Positions 10,471-45,055 of a DNA stretch of 55,713 bases are shown one piece after another. The notes under the pieces were generated by a model. It was not told where the DNA came from and made no database searches. It was given only the letters and a program-made list of their open reading frames with translations. Source of the DNA: Gammaproteobacteria bacterium (lineage in GTDB: Bacteria; Pseudomonadota; Gammaproteobacteria; Pseudomonadales; Azotimanducaceae); NCBI GenBank assembly GCA_026706665.1, contig JAPOYI010000167.1, positions 1-55,713 on the forward strand, read 5' to 3'. Each line of letters opens with the position of its first letter. Within the stretch, counting starts at the first letter, position 1. A program made the translations under genes and the position numbers.

Positions 10471-11068
10471 GCACTTCGACTGGCACATCGACGACAACGG
10501 CGCGTTCGGCTACCGCAGAAACGCCGCGTCCATCGCCGCGGAAGCGGCGCTCGACGGTCTGTATGTCATCCGCACCAGCCTCTCGGAGTCCGAACTCGAC
10601 GACCAGGGCGCGGTGCGCGCCTACAAGCGCCTGAGCGCGGTGGAGCGGGCCTTCCGCAGCTTGAAGAGCGTCGACCTGAAGGTGCGGCCGGTGTTCCACC
10701 GCACCGCCGAACGGGTGCGCGCCCACGTGCTTTTGTGCATGCTGGCCTACTACGTGGAATGGCACATGCGGGAACGGCTGGCGCCGCTGCTGTTCGACGA
10801 CGAGGACCGGGCCGGCGCCGAGGCGCAACGCACCTCCGTCGTCGCCCCGGCCCGGGTCTCCGAATCCGCCCGGCGCAAGGCCCGCACGAAACGCACCGGG
10901 GAGGGCTGGCCCGCGCACAGCTTCCGCACCCTGCTGCGGGACCTGGCCACCGTCACCAAGAACCGCGTGGCGCCCCGTCTCCCCGGCGCCGAACCTTTCG
11001 ACGTCCTCGCCCGACCCACCGAACTGCAGCGCGAAGCCTTCCGGCTGCTCGGCGTGCGTCTACAATAG
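10471..11068 (+). pseudogene. C-terminal part of an IS1634-like (IS4 superfamily) transposase
   Basis: In one frame the sequence reads FDWHIDDNGAFGYRRNA, DGLYVIRTSLSESELDD, YKRLSAVERAFRSLK and LLCMLAYYVEWHMRERL, ending PTELQREAFRLLGVRLQ. This is the DDE catalytic C-terminal half of IS1634-type transposases. The catalytic glutamate and the lysine seven residues later sit in the VERAFRSLK stretch. An in-frame stop lies just upstream, and the N-terminal half with the first catalytic aspartates is missing. It is therefore inactive by itself. The junction with the integrase stub at 10470 is abrupt. I could not identify terminal inverted repeats. Confidence 0.82.
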
Positions 11069-11146
11069 TTGTACCCAGTAACCACCCGGTAGAAATCCGT
11101 GATCTATCCAAAAATCAATAGGTTAGCTCGGATCGACTCTGGAAGT

Positions 11147-12009
11147 TCAGACTAAACTCCCGGAAATCCCTACCAGGAATCGCTCCACCATATCCTTGTA
11201 CGCGAACGCCATCACATCGGACGGGCGAGCCTCGGTTACGGCGTCGATGGTAGGCGGTCGGACCTTCAGCCTGCCGCCGTAAACGCCCCCGATCTCAATG
11301 TGCTGGACCACTGGGAAGTGTTCCTCCTCACCGAAGCCCGCGATCACCAATCCTGAGAAAACGTCCAGCGGGAACTCGTCCTTTTCCACGAGGTGGTTCG
11401 CGATTTCCCGCAGCATTGTCACGCCTTCGTCACCGACCGGCCCGCCCCGGAACACACGAATCACAGCATCGCTCACGCCACCGGAAATGCGGTCCACGAC
11501 GTCTCGCGCCCGCACGGTGAAGTAGTCCGCATCTTGCTGGCTCCGCCAGAACTCTAGGCGCGCCCAGCGATTACGTCTTTGGCGGCATCAGCTTGACCGT
11601 CCCCACCCGCGTACACGCCGCGTTCCACGAATTCCTTGCTGAAGTCCTCCCGAATGCGCAGGTACTCCGTCTCGACCGCCTGCAGGAAATAGCGATCCTG
11701 AATGGCTCTCGGAAACAGCATCTCGTTGCCGTCCAGGAACTGTACCAACGCGTCTCCGTACTCCCGTAACGTTCCGTAGGCCTTTTTCCCTAGTTGTCTT
11801 CGGAATAGCTTGATGACCGTCTCCATGGGAACGCCGAGCAGCGAGGCGTTGTTGTAGACCATCACGCCGACAGGCCTGTACTTGGAGAGCGTAAACAGCT
11901 TCAGAGCTGAATCTCTGATTTTGAGGCTGTCGCCCGTCTCGACGGTCACCGCGCTATCGGCGGCGAGCGCCACCCCAGTTCGATTCATCACGACTACTTC
12001 CGATGTCAT
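11147..12009 (-). pseudogene. Proteasome/HslV-like Ntn hydrolase, one frameshift
   Basis: The protein starts MTSEVVVMNRTGVALAADS, which lines up with the start of proteasome beta subunits and HslV. Removal of Met1 would expose Thr2 as the N-terminal nucleophile, and Asp18 then falls exactly at the place of the conserved Asp17. Lys37 is a candidate for the catalytic lysine. The N-terminal frame stops at 11554. The sequence resumes in another frame (RLEFWRSQQDADYFTVRARD), with the switch between about 11557 and 11578. It ends with GLVIAGFGEEEHFPVVQHIE, a typical late beta-strand block. The total would be about 287 residues. It is last in the minus-strand unit divergent from the ubiquitin-like operon. 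The frameshift may be decay or an assembly error. Confidence 0.65.
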
Positions 12010-12082
12010 GCGTCCACTCGCCTATCGGATTTCTCGCAACGCAGCCTTCGCGGAACTGCGCCAGCGATGATCGACCGCCTCT

Positions 12083-12454
12083 CTAGCGGCGTTCATCGTC
12101 GGGCTCTCCGTCCCCTCGATTGGCATCGCTGCGCTTGATTTTCTCCGCCTTCTTGGGTCGACTCCCAGAGAACGCCATGCGCACTCGCGGCGATGCGCCC
12201 GTCCAGCTTCCGAGCCTTTCCTTCGCCCGAATCATCATTGCCCAGGCTCGGGCCGAGGGCACGCCCGTGCCTCGTCCCGGCTCCTGTTCTTCCACCCGGT
12301 CCATATTTGCCCGAATCTGGGTTTCGATCTCGGACCGCATCATGGTAAGCCGCTCTGGAGAAACATCCTTCTCCGGTTCCGACCGGAGCACTTCGTCCTC
12401 CAGACCCGCCAGCAGCAGATCAAGCCGTCCAACTGGTGTCCTGCTCTCGCTCAT
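12083..12454 (-). CDS. Small hydrophilic protein in the sigma/Ntn-hydrolase unit
   Basis: A 123-residue charged, mostly helical protein with no membrane segment, and a basic then acidic C-terminal tail (KKAEKIKRSDANRGDGEPD). The start ATG at 12454 has a strong GGGGGAGG ribosome site and lies 19 bases after the sigma-factor stop. Longer upstream reading is inside the sigma gene. No family is recognised. Its place between a sigma-like factor and a proteasome-like hydrolase suggests an adaptor or anti-sigma role, but this is only a guess from position. Confidence 0.65.
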   Translation of the reverse strand: MSESRTPVGRLDLLLAGLEDEVLRSEPEKDVSPERLTMMRSEIETQIRANMDRVEEQEPGRGTGVPSARAWAMMIRAKERLGSWTGASPRVRMAFSGSRPKKAEKIKRSDANRGDGEPDDERR

Positions 12455-12473
12455 CCTAGTCACCTCCCCCGAA

Positions 12474-13097
12474 TCAACGACACTGGTGTAGCAACCGTCG
12501 ACGTATCCGCCGCAGCGTGCTCGCATATCGTGTCTTGTCCATGCCGATCTCCTGCTGAATCTCTTGCGGCCCTCGCCCGCTAGCCATCGCGGCCAGCACG
12601 CATAGCGCCTCACGGTCGCCCTCGAACGCGTCTTCGATCCGCCTGATCGTCTCCTCTGCGGAAACGCGCCGTTCAGGCTGCGCCGTCTCGTCGACAGCGC
12701 TAACCACCGCCCCGCCGTCCGTTTCGCGCTCTTCGCCCACCTCCGACTCCGACCGGACCACGGACTGATCCAACCGGCGCCAGTGATCGCTGGCGATGCT
12801 CCGCATCGTTTCGCGGAGAAACACTACCAACGGAACCTCCCGGGGCCACCGTCTCCTCCCGTCGAGCAGCCTCTCGATGGCGTCGTGGAGCAGATCGCGC
12901 CACGCCACCGCGTGCAGCCCCATGACCCGCAGTCTCGCAATCTTCTCAAGTCGCTCGTGATCCTCGTCGGATAGCTGGCGCAACGCCTCCGCGCACTCTT
13001 CCGAGGTCGCCAATTCCCGTTGCACCACACTCATCCAGTCGGCCTCGCCGATCTTCCCTACCACCATAATGCTCACCACGACCGCACCTGCGGACAT
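12474..13097 (-). CDS. ECF-like sigma-70 family factor
   Basis: A protein of about 207 residues. Region 2 is recognisable as WRDLLHDAIERLLDGRRRWP followed by FLRETMRSIASDHWRR, matching the helix that binds core polymerase and the -10 element. A linker rich in Glu and Ser leads to a C-terminal helix-turn-helix: EALCVLAAMASGRGPQEIQQ, then GMDKTRYASTLRRIRRRLL (region 4). Starts at 13097, 13067 or 13034 are possible; 13097 is chosen because it leaves a 98-base divergent promoter region. It is the first gene of the minus-strand unit and divergent from the Ubl-E2 gene, so it may control both directions. It could also be a non-sigma DNA-binding relative. Confidence 0.7.
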   Translation of the reverse strand: MSAGAVVVSIMVVGKIGEADWMSVVQRELATSEECAEALRQLSDEDHERLEKIARLRVMGLHAVAWRDLLHDAIERLLDGRRRWPREVPLVVFLRETMRSIASDHWRRLDQSVVRSESEVGEERETDGGAVVSAVDETAQPERRVSAEETIRRIEDAFEGDREALCVLAAMASGRGPQEIQQEIGMDKTRYASTLRRIRRRLLHQCR

Positions 13098-13121
13098 CGC
13101 CGCTACTTCGGTTTCGCGCGT

Positions 13122-13146
13122 CGAGTGTCCGAATGTCCGGAGCTCG
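13122..13146. promoter_or_regulatory. Dyad in the divergent promoter region of the Ubl island
   Basis: Nested inverted repeats: CGAG (13122-13125) pairs with CTCG (13143-13146), and TCCG (13128-13131) with CGGA (13138-13141). The dyad lies in the 98-base gap between the sigma-like gene and the Ubl-E2 gene, where an operator or shared promoter would be expected. The binding protein is unknown. Confidence 0.35.
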
Positions 13147-13195
13147 GCAGCATAAGGGGGTACGAATCCTGCCACCAACCGAGGGAGCCTCCTGC

Positions 13196-13864
13196 ATGGC
13201 CGACGACCCCATCCCCATCGAAGTCCCGGACTTGGACAACAAGGTCCAGATCGACAAGGACTATTTCGAAGCGCCCACACCCCTGATGACAGGCCGCGAG
13301 CTTCTTGAGCTTGCTGGCAAGAAGCCGCCCGACGATTTCGCCATCTACCTTAAGGTGAAGGGTGGCCAGCCCGAGCGCATCGAACTCGACCAGAAGATCG
13401 ACCTCAGCCGCCCCGGTGTGGAACGCTTCCTGACCCTTCCCCTTGATCAGACGGAAGGATTCGGGGCACGCCGCGAGTTCGCCCTTCCCGAGGACGATGT
13501 CGACTGGCTCGCCGACGCACCGCACAGGTTCGAACTCGTCGCCGAGGGCGGCGTCCTGCGCGTCGTGCTTTACAGCTTCCCCGTTCCCCCTGGGTACAAC
13601 CGCCGGGCCGTGGACGTCAACGTGCGTATCGAGTCCGGATACCCGGACACTCAGATCGACATGGTCTACGTCCATCCCGAACTCCAACGCCTCGACGGGG
13701 TTCCGATTGGTGCCACGTGCCCTGAAGCGTTCGACGGCAAACAGTGGCAGCGCTGGAGCCGACACCGCACGCCGGCTAACCCCTGGCGGCCCGGCGTCGA
13801 CAACCTAGCCACCCACTTCGCCCTCGTCGAACACTGGTTCCAGCGCGAACTGCGGGAAGGCTGA
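13196..13864 (+). CDS. Ubiquitin-like/E2-like fusion protein (multiubiquitin + prokaryotic E2 family E)
   Basis: A 222-residue protein. Residues about 30-88 match the bacterial multiubiquitin-type Ubl fold, with MTGRELLELAGKKPPDDFAI then a beta strand YLKVKGG, and they end at Gly88. Residues about 110-215 resemble prokaryotic E2 family E: FPVPPGYNRRAVDVNVRI, the E2-like GYPDTQIDMVYVHPEL, FDGKQWQRWSRH, and a final helix ending in Gly222. Cys175 is the only cysteine and is a candidate thioester site. It probably supplies the modifier and the conjugating domain in one chain. The start ATG at 13196 follows GAGGGAG. The next gene, five bases on, encodes the JAB-E1 fusion. Confidence 0.82.
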   Translation: MADDPIPIEVPDLDNKVQIDKDYFEAPTPLMTGRELLELAGKKPPDDFAIYLKVKGGQPERIELDQKIDLSRPGVERFLTLPLDQTEGFGARREFALPEDDVDWLADAPHRFELVAEGGVLRVVLYSFPVPPGYNRRAVDVNVRIESGYPDTQIDMVYVHPELQRLDGVPIGATCPEAFDGKQWQRWSRHRTPANPWRPGVDNLATHFALVEHWFQRELREG

Positions 13865-13868
13865 GGCC

Positions 13869-15266
13869 GTGCCGAACGCTTCGCTCACGCTGACCCGCAG
13901 CCAGCACGCCGACCTCTTGGCGCACCTCTTCCCGCGCGACGGCTGTGAGGCCGTGGCGATCGCCCTTTGCGGCCTACGGCGGGGTAAGCATAGGATTCGC
14001 CTGCTCGTCCGCGAGTTGGTGCCCATCCCCTACGACACCTGCTCCGACCGGCAGCCGAACCGCGTTACCTGGCCCACACACGTCCTGCCGCCGCTCCTTG
14101 AGAAGGCGCATGCCCGAGGACTCGCCGTGCTCAAGATCCACGGTCACCGGCGCGAGTCGTCCTTTTCTGCCATCGACGACCGCGCCGACCGCGTCCTCTT
14201 TCCTTCGGTTCACCTATGGACCGAGGTCGGCCCGCATGGAAGCGCCATCGCCTACCCCGACGGTCGCATGATCGGCAGGCTTGTCGATAGCCAGGGCGCG
14301 TTCGAACCCTTGTCGTTGGTCAACGTCGTCGGCGACGATTTGCCCTTCTGGCCATCCGTTGCGGACTCTGTCTGCGTTCCCGAGTTCGCGCGCCGCGTGG
14401 CTCAGACATTCGGCGCCGGCACTTACGAACGCCTCCGCCGTCTCCGCGTCGCCGTAGTCGGCTGTTCCGGCACGGGCAGCCCTTTGATCGAGCAACTCGC
14501 GCGCAATTGCGTAGGTGAGCTTGTTCTCGTCGACCCAGACCGCGTGGAGGAGAAGAACCTCAACCGCATCGTGAATGCCACAATGGACGACGCCCGGAAA
14601 GGCCGCCTGAAAGTAGATGTCGCTGCCCGGACGATCCGGGCGATGGGCCTTGGCACCGTCGTCCAGACCTATGCGCGCAGCCTTTTTGATCCCGTCGCCG
14701 TCCGCGCCGTTGCCAGCTGCGATGTCGTCTTCGGCTGCATGGACTCCATCGACGGGCGACACCTTTTGAATAAGCTAGCGACTTTCTACCTCCTCCCGTA
14801 CTTCGACCTCGGCGTCAAACTTGAGGCCGACGGTCACGGCGGCGTCGACCAAGTGTGCGGAACTGTCCATTACCTCCAACCGGGCGGGTCGAGCCTTCTC
14901 AGCCGTCGCGTGTACACCATGGACCAGGTTCGTGCCGCCGGCCTTCACCGAACTGACCCCGACGCCTACCGTGCCCAGCTCGACGACGGCTACATTCGCG
15001 GAGTTCAGGAGGACCGCCCCGCCGTTGTCCAGCTGAATTCGCTACTTGCCAGCCTTGCAGTCAACGAGTTCCTAGCTCGACTCCACCCGTTCCGGCTCGA
15101 TCCTAACGCCGATTACGCCATTCACCGCCTCAGCCTCAGTCATGGCATTTACGAGCATGAGGACGATGGCAAACCTTGTCCCGTCTTGGCCCGGCACGTC
15201 GGTCGGGGCGATGTATCCCCGCTTCTGGACTGGGCCGAACTCAGCCTCACCAAGAACGCCGCGTGA
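13869..15266 (+). CDS. JAB protease/E1 (ThiF) fusion protein
   Basis: A 465-residue protein. The first 150 residues form a JAB/JAMM-type deubiquitinase domain: His91 and His93 in KIHGHRR, then Ser100 and Asp103 in FSAIDD as metal and catalytic residues. Residues about 190-440 are a ThiF/E1 adenylating domain with VAVVGCSGTGSPLIEQLA, the aspartate in VLVDPD, the arginine in NLNRIV, and FGCMDSIDGRHLLN. The E1 part would adenylate the glycine end of the modifier; the JAB part would trim or remove it. The start is GTG at 13869. Its GTGA stop/start overlap with the DUF6527 gene shows tight coupling. Confidence 0.87.
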   Translation: MPNASLTLTRSQHADLLAHLFPRDGCEAVAIALCGLRRGKHRIRLLVRELVPIPYDTCSDRQPNRVTWPTHVLPPLLEKAHARGLAVLKIHGHRRESSFSAIDDRADRVLFPSVHLWTEVGPHGSAIAYPDGRMIGRLVDSQGAFEPLSLVNVVGDDLPFWPSVADSVCVPEFARRVAQTFGAGTYERLRRLRVAVVGCSGTGSPLIEQLARNCVGELVLVDPDRVEEKNLNRIVNATMDDARKGRLKVDVAARTIRAMGLGTVVQTYARSLFDPVAVRAVASCDVVFGCMDSIDGRHLLNKLATFYLLPYFDLGVKLEADGHGGVDQVCGTVHYLQPGGSSLLSRRVYTMDQVRAAGLHRTDPDAYRAQLDDGYIRGVQEDRPAVVQLNSLLASLAVNEFLARLHPFRLDPNADYAIHRLSLSHGIYEHEDDGKPCPVLARHVGRGDVSPLLDWAELSLTKNAA

Positions 15267-15685
15267 GTTCACCGTTGCGACTCTGGTGGTGCCTAGTAGA
15301 GCGCTCCGGACTACGCCCGGGATTCGCCACTGTCACTGTCGACTATCTGCCCGATGTCCTCGCCCCGAATCGACTCTATCTGATCGGCGACGCCGCCTGT
15401 CCGTGGTCCGCTGCACTGCTCTGTCCGTGTGGATGCGAAGCTACGATACAACTCAGCTTGCTTCCCCACGACAAGCCCGGCTGGAGCGCTGTGCGCCACT
15501 TCAGCGGCTCAGTCTCTCTTCGGCCCTCCGTCTGGCGGAAGCGCGGGTGCCGCAGCCACTTCTTCCTGCGGCGCGGTCGCATCGTATGGTCGGCCCATTC
15601 TCCGTCGCACTTCGACACGCCTTGCTCTGCGCTCACCGATCACCAACCGGATTTCGAGCGCGAATCCATGCAGCCGCGTCACTGA
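15263..15685 (+). CDS. DUF6527 family protein, third gene of the Ubl operon
   Basis: A 140-residue protein starting with GTG at 15263, inside the stop of the JAB-E1 gene. It shows the DUF6527 layout: an early strand TVDYLPDVLAPNRLYLIGD, a CPCGC knuckle (near residue 54), then WRKRGCRSHFFLRRGRIVW. The cysteines and histidine suggest a zinc site. DUF6527 proteins are recurrent partners of bacterial ubiquitin-like operons, and I recall the family also being called BubE. Its exact biochemical role is not something I can prove from sequence. The protein is complete, with a basic C-terminal tail. Confidence 0.78.
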   Translation: MSSPLRLWWCLVERSGLRPGFATVTVDYLPDVLAPNRLYLIGDAACPWSAALLCPCGCEATIQLSLLPHDKPGWSAVRHFSGSVSLRPSVWRKRGCRSHFFLRRGRIVWSAHSPSHFDTPCSALTDHQPDFERESMQPRH

Positions 15686-16884: not shown

Positions 16885-16970
16885 TGGTGCCCAGGGTGGG
16901 ATTCGAACCCACACGCCCTAAGGGCACAGGATTCTAAGTCCTGCTTGTCTACCAGTTTCAACACCTGGGC
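16885..16970 (-). tRNA. tRNA-Leu (anticodon UAG)
   Basis: Read on the minus strand, the acceptor stem GCCCAGG pairs with CCTGGGC, and ACCA follows, so CCA is encoded. The D-arm has AAACTGGTAGAC, and the anticodon loop CTTAGAA gives anticodon TAG inside the stem CAGGA/TCCTG. A long variable arm (TGCCCTTAGGGCGT) is typical of leucine tRNAs, and the T-arm contains GGTTCGAATCC. The length is 86 bases with CCA. Its 3' end faces the accessory island, a common integration site arrangement. Confidence 0.97.
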
Positions 16971-43349: not shown

Positions 43350-45055
43350 CGATTCAAACGCCGATCGCTTACGTTCTGCGGCACCGGGGGCGTGTGATCC
43401 GTATCGCTGGATGGAGCGTCGGCGTCACGCTGGCGCCGATGTTCACCGGGCGGGCGATCGCGAGCGCGATGGACGCGGCTAGCTCGGGCGCCCTGGCAGT
43501 GTCGTTCATGTGGCTCGCGGGATTGTTGGGTGCAGGGGCGGTGGGAGTCTTGTCACTGATGCGCCTGTCTCGGTTGGCGGCGGACATTTCGGCGGACGTA
43601 CAGACGGATCTGACCCGCGATGTGGTGCGGCACGCGCTCGCGGATGCGGTGGGTTCGGATCGGGTGCTGCGGTCCGGCGCCGAGTTGATCCAGCATGTGC
43701 CGGTGCTCGTGGACGTGCTGTCGTTGATGTTGCGCACGGCGCCCGCCGGCCTGTTCGCGATCGGCGCTGTGGCGGGACTCGCGACGCTGTCCGGGACTCT
43801 GCTGATCCTGGTGGTGCCTTGGCTCGCGGTATCCGTGTTTCTGCTGGCGGCGCTCGTGCGCCGGGATACGCGTAACCAGAGGGCGGTGACGCTGGCGAGC
43901 GAGGCTTCCTACGGCGAGATGGCCAAGGCCATACAAGGCGTTCGCGACCTGATGGCGGCGGGTGCGAAGGGGTATGCGATGGGGCGCGTGCGGTATTGCA
44001 TAGAGGCGGCGAACCGTTTGCTGCTGAAACAGGGAGACCAGAACGCCGTCCGTTCGGGCCTGGTCAATGCCACCTCGACCTGGCTGCCCGCGCTAACGGC
44101 CCTGGCGTTCGTGCCGACGCTGGTTCGCAACGGTAGTTTGACGCCGGGCGAAGTTGTAGGTTCGTTCACCTATCTGCTCGCGGGACTTGCCGCGGCGTCG
44201 ACTTTCGTCACTTCGGTGATGGGATACGTCGTGACCCTGCGAGTACGGCACGGTCGCCTGGTCGAGTCCGTCGGCGAAGACTCGCCGACCGCTCGCGAAG
44301 ACGTTGATGCGTCGCCGAGGACTTGCTCGACGATCCAAGTACGCGATCTGACTTTCTCCTATGGAGCGTCGGCTCAGCCCATCGTCGATGGTCTGCGGTT
44401 GGACATACCTCACGGCGACCATCTCGCCATCGTCGGCCCGAGCGGGATCGGGAAGTCGACGCTCGCCGCCTTGTTTGCTGGCGTGTTGGCTCCGGATAGT
44501 GGTTCCGTGGAAGTCGCCGGCGCCTACCTCCATCTGCGCGGGGACCGTACCGGGCTCGTAACGATGGTTCCCCAGGAGGCCTATGTATTTGCGGGATCGC
44601 TGCGCGACAACCTGACTTACCTGCGACCATCGGCATCGGACGAGGAGTTGGCCACCTCTGCCCAGGCAGTGGGGCTCGAGCGGGTGTTGGACCGGCTTGG
44701 CGGTTTCGATGCCCAGATCGACCTCGCCAAGTCGGGATTGTCCGCGGGCGAGAAGCAGTTGGTGACATTGGCGCGGGCGCACCTCGCGGCGACGCCCATT
44801 GTCGTTCTGGACGAGGCCACGTGCCATTTGGATCCGGCTGCCGAGGAAAGGGCGGAACGCGCTTTCATGTCGACCGGAAGCACGCTGATAGTAGTCGCGC
44901 ATCGCATGTCGGCGACGTTGCGCGCGAAAAGGGTGATGGTCATGGGCAGCGATGGCATTGATGTTGGCGACCACACTGCGCTGATGCAGAGACACGCGCT
45001 TTACACCGACTTTCACGGCATGTGGTCGGCACCGATGACGGAGCAATCAGAGTGA
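43346..45055 (+). CDS. ABC exporter half-transporter, catalytic partner (second pair)
   Basis: A 569-residue half-transporter starting MTIQTPIAYVLRHRG at ATG 43346, inside the stop of the preceding gene. Walker A is GPSGIGKST (about 369), the signature is LSAGEKQ, and Walker B is IVVLDEATCHLD with the catalytic Glu. The membrane part has about six helices. With its partner it makes a second heterodimeric exporter, unrelated in detail to the pair at 30-34 kb. The frame is open upstream to 43220 but that lies inside the partner gene. Confidence 0.88.
   Translation: MTIQTPIAYVLRHRGRVIRIAGWSVGVTLAPMFTGRAIASAMDAASSGALAVSFMWLAGLLGAGAVGVLSLMRLSRLAADISADVQTDLTRDVVRHALADAVGSDRVLRSGAELIQHVPVLVDVLSLMLRTAPAGLFAIGAVAGLATLSGTLLILVVPWLAVSVFLLAALVRRDTRNQRAVTLASEASYGEMAKAIQGVRDLMAAGAKGYAMGRVRYCIEAANRLLLKQGDQNAVRSGLVNATSTWLPALTALAFVPTLVRNGSLTPGEVVGSFTYLLAGLAAASTFVTSVMGYVVTLRVRHGRLVESVGEDSPTAREDVDASPRTCSTIQVRDLTFSYGASAQPIVDGLRLDIPHGDHLAIVGPSGIGKSTLAALFAGVLAPDSGSVEVAGAYLHLRGDRTGLVTMVPQEAYVFAGSLRDNLTYLRPSASDEELATSAQAVGLERVLDRLGGFDAQIDLAKSGLSAGEKQLVTLARAHLAATPIVVLDEATCHLDPAAEERAERAFMSTGSTLIVVAHRMSATLRAKRVMVMGSDGIDVGDHTALMQRHALYTDFHGMWSAPMTEQSE

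Follow-up and report, generated by a model that had tools for sequence, protein, structure and literature searches.

A ubiquitin-like conjugation operon divergent from a sigma factor and a hydrolase

We analyzed a 55,713-nucleotide stretch of DNA (the window), contig JAPOYI010000167.1 of the Gammaproteobacteria bacterium assembly GCA_026706665.1, and focused on one locus within it. On the plus strand lies a ubiquitin-like (Ubl) conjugation operon of the Bub or "6e" type, whose three genes encode Ubl fused to E2, JAB fused to E1, and DUF6527; divergent from it, the minus strand carries genes for a sigma factor of the extracytoplasmic function (ECF) type, for a small protein, and for a threonine hydrolase of the proteasome fold. 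As read from sequence, what is new here are the mirror-image promoter-like sites in the 13 intergenic regions of this kind. The features of the locus are as follows (other loci carry our own labels, L002 and so forth):

13196-13864, plus strand: Ubl (multiubiquitin domain) fused to an RWD/UBC-like Prok-E2_E domain (PF14452, 5.4e-14; PF14462, 1.6e-36)
13869-15266, plus strand: JAB peptidase domain fused to an E1-like adenylating domain (PF00899, 1.3e-29; JAMM residues)
15263-15685, plus strand: DUF6527, with a CPCGC stretch (PF20137, 4.4e-21; GTGA overlap with the E1 stop; translation)
13126-13154, plus strand: promoter-like site facing the Ubl operon, TGTCCG-N18-GCATA (pattern match)
13069-13096, minus strand: promoter-like site facing the sigma operon, TGTCCG-N18-GCAT (pattern match)
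12474-13034, minus strand: ECF-type sigma factor (TIGR02937, 3.8e-11; MSVVQRE start placed from the promoter position)
12083-12454, minus strand: small protein of 123 amino acids (position between sigma factor and hydrolase; no family match)
11557-12009, minus strand: N-terminal piece of the hydrolase, with Thr1, Asp17, and Lys33 equivalents (profile positions 1-130 of 436, 4.5e-53)
11150-11587, minus strand: middle piece of the hydrolase, in a different frame from the N-terminal piece (profile positions 154-287 of 436, 9.7e-26)
10613-11110, plus strand: insertion-sequence remnant, C-terminal part of a transposase (PF01609, 0.0029, 17.8 bits, below the curated 23)

A preliminary description of this DNA had named the two plus-strand fusions, DUF6527 as the third gene, and an ECF-like sigma factor and a small protein on the minus strand, all of which were borne out. 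It had also coupled the three tightly packed plus-strand genes by a 5-base spacing and a GTGA overlap; the overlap (15263-15266) stands, and the gap between the Ubl-E2 and E1 genes is 4 bases.

Because a Pfam search gave no match for the N-terminal half of the E1 protein, its identity as a JAB domain was settled by the JAMM motif, whose residues E29, H93, H95, S102, and D105 do not vary among the 32 distinct loci (residue counts over distinct loci exclude L129-L131, which repeat L016-L018). The ATP site of E1 is similarly kept, with G200, T204, G205, S206, N232, and R235 present in all 32 and G203 and D224 in 31. The E2-like part has no conserved catalytic cysteine: C175 of the window is a cysteine in 7 of 23 distinct filled rows. 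Bil (bacterial ISG15-like) operons encode a separate JAB protein and an E2 with a catalytic cysteine, whereas in the window JAB is fused to E1 and the E2 lacks a conserved cysteine. All 25 of the 30 PADLOC matches that were listed are to E1-E2 models, on the ThiF domain, and an E1 scan of viral contigs gave nine pattern matches and no relative.

The window has the same gene set and order as Bub/6e operons, with a multiubiquitin-type Ubl and E2/RWD-like protein, E1 fused to JAB, and DUF6527 downstream. The family 6e table of Iyer et al. (2006, PMC1779556) lists a polyUbl, an inactive E2, a JAB-E1, and a metal-binding protein; the window E2 fits the "inactive E2-/RWD like" protein of that table, and DUF6527 is probably its metal-binding protein "Y". 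The name Bub follows from an Enterobacter roggenkampii plasmid region (L100) that carries genes for CapS WP_001567865.1, Ubl-E2, ThiF, and DUF6527, with an E1 36% identical to that of the window: in the part of PMC13373217 that treats E. roggenkampii EB00176-1, the operon beside capK+capS, whose CapS has this same accession, is called Bub. Judged by its genes, the window operon is a predicted Ubl conjugation operon of the Bub/6e type. The preliminary description took such operons to be established phage defense, a view that the literature did not confirm: in the passages cited here, PMC13373217 states that protection against phage by Bub has not been demonstrated, and in a 2025 review (PMC12687455) phages are described as the apparent main target of such systems.

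The arrangement recurs in three proteobacterial classes

A scan of 84,980 species genomes recovered 494 loci encoding a relative of the hydrolase, from which the best 80 were kept. In 11 of the 80 (L011-L019, L024, and L044), DUF6527, E1, and Ubl-E2 lie on one strand and the sigma factor and hydrolase on the other, a share that probably overstates the Bub-linked fraction because the alignment used for ranking the 494 has a Bub-linked first row. A Mesorhizobium 131-3-5 plasmid (L002) has the same divergent arrangement. With L002 and the window, the order DUF6527-E1-UblE2 / sigma-(small)-hydrolase is found in 13 loci, from Mesorhizobium, Sphingomonas, Bradyrhizobium, Rubrivivax, and others. The neighborhood survey proposed in the preliminary description thus gave a positive answer, with the sigma factor, small gene, and hydrolase recurring beside Ubl-E2, E1, and DUF6527. 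Since the arrangement recurs in Alpha-, Beta-, and Gammaproteobacteria, the minus-strand genes belong to the locus, and the idea that they merely landed here is ruled out by the recurrent gene order. In a quick tree, the hydrolases of the 12 sister loci fall on one side of a branch with an SH-aLRT of 99.9.

Among 72,556 plasmid records, the hydrolase occurs in 10, Ubl-E2 in 99, and E1 in 152. A Bub operon adjoins the hydrolase in five of the 10, namely one of the sigma type and four from Rhizobium (for the fourth of these, NZ_CP017104, the adjacency was deduced from coordinates); the other five gave no Bub match. The Rhizobium Bub operons of L004, L005, and L008 also have a gene for a ClpP/SDH-like serine protease after DUF6527 (by Pfam for L005), with the hydrolase nearby. 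We considered whether the hydrolase was recruited to Bub twice, once to the sigma type and once to the Rhizobium helix-turn-helix (HTH) type. The quick tree separates the two, yet a constraint holding them together has the better likelihood and is not rejected (p-AU 0.91); independent double recruitment is therefore not claimed. Closer to the window, the N-terminal hydrolase piece was searched against 97 genomes around its own and matched its own genome alone (0 of 96 others). In another class of the window's phylum, 14 of 289 genomes have the hydrolase, and the eight of these whose surroundings were examined gave no Bub match.

Mirror-image promoter-like sites face both operons

The 13 intergenic regions share a back-to-back element, TGTCCG-N18-GCAT, facing both operons. 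Taking the best match per region at a spacer of 18, all 13 regions have at least 9 of 10 fixed positions on the Ubl side, and 12 (all but L019) have as many on the sigma side, counts that describe the motif and are no blind test because it was read off these same regions. At every other spacer between 10 and 26, no more than 3 of the 13 regions reach 9 fixed positions; a score of 9 was reached by 350 of 26,000 dinucleotide shuffles and a score of 10 by 9. Both arms are exact in the window (13069-13096 on the minus strand and 13126-13153 on the plus strand), which as a whole contains three matches to TGTCCG-N18-GCAT versus 0.19 expected. The third exact match lies far from the locus, at 43559-43586 on the minus strand.

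Across the 13 genomes or records, the exact pattern TGTCCG-N18-GCATA occurs at 23 sites, 9 inside the locus and 14 elsewhere, compared with 21 sites for the reversed pattern. Because exact sites show no excess over the reversed pattern, there is no sign of other targets of the sigma factor, and a regulon beyond the locus was rejected on these grounds. Such a layout, with sites facing both operons and no surplus of them in the rest of these genomes, is the mark of a sigma factor that serves only the locus encoding it: a putative cognate promoter is common to the sigma factor's own operon and to its target operon. The transcription control that the preliminary description had attributed to the locus is backed by these paired sites, and the sigma factor very probably controls the locus.

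The window sigma factor matches TIGR02937 (3.8e-11) with 42.9 bits, exactly the curated cut-off of 42.9 (tested from 13100), and has no Pfam sigma match; all 12 sister loci have a sigma-model match. All 13 loci, window included, have a small gene between those for the sigma factor and the hydrolase. Among the loci, a small-protein model built from the window and L002 matches only L011, L012, and, weakly, L024, and in the remaining loci a loose P-x-L-x-M-A-F motif is seen by eye (the by-eye comparison of sigma factors and small proteins leaves out the L013 sigma and L016 small-protein rows).

The hydrolase has a proteasome fold and is a remnant in the window

Full-length relatives of the hydrolase are about 400-480 amino acids long. 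From 91 loci we obtained a 79-row alignment, in which the start rule dropped L038, L055, L060, L065, L079, L087, and L088, and L001, L007, L010, L081, and the window were dropped as short. The Asp17 equivalent is present in 78 of 79 rows (the exception is L085) and the Lys33 equivalent in 79 of 79; the Met-Thr start, also in 79 of 79, is there by construction, as the start rule demands the threonine, and the genome-scan patterns likewise preselect the ETVGGP and RKHYF columns. A six-row profile searched against PDB sequences gave archaeal proteasome beta subunits as its top three matches (E about 0.1), with the C-terminal GGxxDVAVI part aligning better and the N-terminal Thr-Lys part in place at 3.8 bits. 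With a 59-row profile, the proteasome drops to E about 0.8 and cullins become the best matches (E from 0.003, profile positions ~79-179, in the first helical insertion), a likeness that we take as a chance resemblance of long helices. An AlphaFold2 model of the Sphingomonas hydrolase has the proteasome topology (pLDDT 84.9, pTM 0.80). Of its 233 Foldseek matches, the 50 listed all belong to the proteasome superfamily, headed by Anbu (5nyw) at E 1.9e-4 and probability 1.00, with a TM-score of about 0.5 by target and a large root-mean-square deviation. Alignment, model, and Foldseek thus agree on a family with N-terminal Thr, Asp17, and Lys33 equivalents and a proteasome fold.

The nearest solved folds are Anbu, HslV, and the 20S proteasome beta subunit, from which the hydrolase differs in its length of ~430 amino acids, its two large helical insertions, and an identity of only ~10%. 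Fuchs, Alva, and Lupas (2021, PMC8665760) describe 22 proteasome-like families. According to the passages cited here, PMI-3 and PMI-4 have insertions at the same two places as our model, PMI-4 has the same spread (bacteria, Euryarchaeota, and phages), and no genomic contexts suggestive of function are reported for the PMI families. The hydrolase resembles PMI-4 in its proteasome fold, its Thr1/Asp17/Lys33 set, and its helical insertions before S5 and between H3 and H4, and is probably that family, an assignment made by layout and distribution and not by sequence comparison.

The preliminary description spoke of an N-terminal nucleophile (Ntn) hydrolase with the beta-subunit start. The threonine start stands; an intact gene does not. 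The window copy is a remnant in two frames, with profile positions 288-436 absent and the ETVGGPxDV and W..RKHYF stretches gone with them, and these two pieces and the missing last third rule out an intact hydrolase. Its 3' side abuts the end of an insertion sequence whose right end was found at five other places in the same genome, 88-97% identical. Hydrolase genes split into two frames or pieces occur elsewhere too (L010, G522, and G554).

The hydrolase occupies the controller position of Bub loci

We examined 20 further plasmid Bub neighborhoods, all from records without the hydrolase. Six encode a sigma-like protein (L092, L093, L096, which is weak, L098, L101, and L158). Among those run against curated sigma cut-offs, L093 alone passes; L158, named a sigma-70 factor by RefSeq, was not in that run. 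No Pfam or NCBIfam sigma match was found for L096, L098, and L101, and only weak ones for L092. A narrow sigma model (window and L002) finds L092, L101, L158, L098, and, weakly, L096, while L093, L101, and L158 match the broad sigma model by construction, having been used to build it. After the sigma gene and a second small gene, an ImmA/IrrE-type protease follows in L092, L096, L101, and L158 (by Pfam in L092 and L101, by annotation in the others); the arrangement of L092 includes an intervening, weakly HTH-like protein. L101 (GCAT), L092 (GCAA and GCAC), and L158 (GCCTT on both sides) each have spacer-18 sites directed at both operons. By eye, mirror-image repeats of other sequence lie between the divergent genes of L093 and L098, and none were seen in L096.

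The remaining 14 of the 20 carry, by annotation, an HTH protein with ImmA/IrrE (L094, L097, L099, L151, L154, L157, and L159), a CapK+CapS-like pair (L100 and L153), a WYL protein (L152), or other genes (L091, L095, L155, and L156). The protein at L156:1429-2232, upstream of a helicase and the Bub operon, has a C-terminus that resembles by eye the helix-turn-helix of sigma region 4; the broad sigma model gave no match to it.

Since other Bub operons carry a controller there, the hydrolase occupies the controller position. Unlike in known Bub operons, the controller in loci of the window type consists of an ECF sigma factor together with a small protein and a proteasome-like hydrolase. CapH+CapP and other HTH plus ImmA/IrrE modules likewise set a controller with a protease beside the Bub operon: CapP is a protease, activated by single-stranded DNA, that cleaves the repressor CapH (PMC13373217). 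COG2856/DUF955-type toxin-antitoxin pairs are stated to adjoin 70% of multiubiquitin genes (2016, PMC4963859). Compared with CapH+CapP, a sigma factor and small protein stand in place of the repressor and a threonine hydrolase in place of the metalloprotease. Full-text searches of the open-licence literature turned up no paper that connects Bub operons with a hydrolase of this kind or with an ECF sigma factor.

The hydrolase also occurs without Bub

In non-Bub loci (L020-L090, for example L047:5780-7250), a conserved tiny gene of about 55-75 amino acids (FHSMKEFEKKYFPKSFEKK...LAKESLDKIR) follows the hydrolase. It was detected in 45 of 69 non-Bub loci at E<1e-3 and in 54 of 69 at E<10, counts that include 13 loci from which the tiny-gene model was built. 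The pair is spread from archaea to several bacterial phyla, and the model search found the tiny gene in none of the 11 Bub-linked genome loci. The stand-alone hydrolase and tiny protein make a separate candidate defense module.

PHROG family 5990 (phrog_5990), annotated as of function unknown, is this hydrolase. It is present in 13 of 50,697 phage records, nine of them from Streptococcus (seven satellite phages and two prophages). In eight of the 13 (six satellite phages and prophages Javan84/85) the hydrolase lies within ~200 bases of a record end, where cargo genes are usually located; it is not near the end in Javan421 and the four non-Streptococcus records. In the satellite Javan103, the hydrolase is the second-last gene and is followed by a 55-amino-acid gene, to which the tiny-gene model gave no match.

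A proposed self-contained sigma switch and its alternatives

We lean, by a small measure, toward a reading in which the Bub/6e operon would be under a self-contained sigma switch, with a small-protein inhibitor removed by the hydrolase. The divergent ECF sigma factor would transcribe both operons from the two mirror-image promoters and, to judge from the sites, nothing more; the sequence makes a strong case that it would use the TGTCCG-N18-GCAT sites. The adjoining small protein, a candidate anti-sigma factor or protease substrate, would most likely inhibit the sigma factor, a role that seems to us evenly balanced between true and false. On a stress or phage signal, the hydrolase would most likely remove this inhibitor. 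It may cleave the small protein and free the sigma factor, because CapP analogously cleaves CapH; we offer this step tentatively, judging it slightly short of an even balance. The freed sigma factor would let the locus amplify its own expression and switch on Ubl conjugation, with a defense or stress response as the output. Bub operons are numerous, and a sigma switch with mirror-image promoters would provide a direct handle on them: expressing one protein might turn the locus on. The Ubl conjugation genes also give an informative genomic context to an uncharacterized family of proteasome homologs, and how tagging and proteolysis came together becomes testable in bacteria.

Several observations weigh against the switch. 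The site motif was counted on the very 13 regions that yielded it, L019 has no convincing site on the sigma side, and the relaxed site pattern has background matches in other Bub loci (L095, L097 twice, and L159). The 123-amino-acid small protein had no match in family searches and no detected likeness to any anti-sigma family; its sequence is very loose, and relatedness over the 13 loci is shown for few. In L093 and L098, a gene annotated as a UvrD/PcrA-like or ATP-dependent helicase takes the same place after the sigma factor and second small gene, and in the Rhizobium plasmid neighborhoods L004, L005, and L008 the hydrolase lies by Bub with an HTH protein and no sigma match. Three Bub loci of the window's phylum (L133-L135) gave no sigma or hydrolase match. 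Finally, 69 of the 80 hydrolase genome loci showed no match to Ubl-E2, E1, DUF6527, or sigma factor (34 of the 69 are under 12 kb).

This last count speaks for an alternative in which the hydrolase is an independent accessory enzyme, perhaps anti-phage, that was captured beside Bub and neither regulates nor executes Ubl conjugation. The tiny downstream gene of the non-Bub loci and the phage copies near record ends point the same way. However, the tiny gene was found in none of the 11 Bub-linked genome loci, and the sigma-small-hydrolase order is kept from Alpha- to Gammaproteobacteria in the Bub-linked clade, which chance capture is not expected to do; we consider this alternative distinctly improbable. 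The preliminary description had inclined to tagging and degradation, whereby Bub enzymes tag targets with Ubl, the hydrolase degrades them, and the sigma factor merely controls expression. The proteasome fold and catalytic residues agree with it, as does the consistent link of the hydrolase to Ubl genes in one clade, and a gene for a ClpP-like protease in three of the Rhizobium Bub operons means that proteolysis recurs around Bub. Nevertheless, most Bub operons lack the hydrolase, as the plasmid counts make clear, and its two large helical insertions may hinder ring assembly, as is argued for such insertions in a passage of PMC8665760. The controller position, with the hydrolase possibly cleaving a sigma inhibitor, favors a transcription switch over tagging and degradation. 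Given that position, the 69 loci without Ubl genes, and the broken window copy, tagging and degradation did not hold up as the likeliest reading, and we regard it as unlikely. It is doubtful that Bub conjugation and the proteolytic activity of the PMI-type hydrolase make up a single pathway with its own sigma factor, in which the hydrolase would either degrade proteins tagged with Ubl or remove the sigma inhibitor in a Ubl-dependent manner; such a pathway, if real, would amount to a minimal ubiquitin-proteasome-like circuit in bacteria, with feed-forward control of its transcription.

A further alternative concerns the window alone and is compatible with the sigma switch in intact relatives: the locus may be a decaying genomic island with no function here. 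Consistent with decay, the hydrolase is frameshifted and cut off at the insertion sequence, its N-terminal piece matches none of the 96 other related genomes, and Bub fragments lie on another contig of the same genome. Conversely, the reading frames of the other five genes are open and neither promoter-like site is missing, and while the frame change could be a sequencing error in a draft genome, the missing last third is not. We hold decay to be quite possible, though rather less than evenly balanced. In the window, the locus is left without an intact hydrolase, and the putative sigma switch there is probably decaying or stuck.

Surroundings of the locus

A tRNA-Leu gene (16885-16970) lies ~1.2 kb past the Ubl operon; this gene and, at the opposite flank, the insertion-sequence remnant may mark the boundaries of an island. 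On the second contig of the same genome (L132, C175:7904-9581), the Bub fragments lie at the contig end and comprise E2 and JAB-E1 pieces identified by model; they adjoin a protein that resembles an ImmA/IrrE protease by eye.

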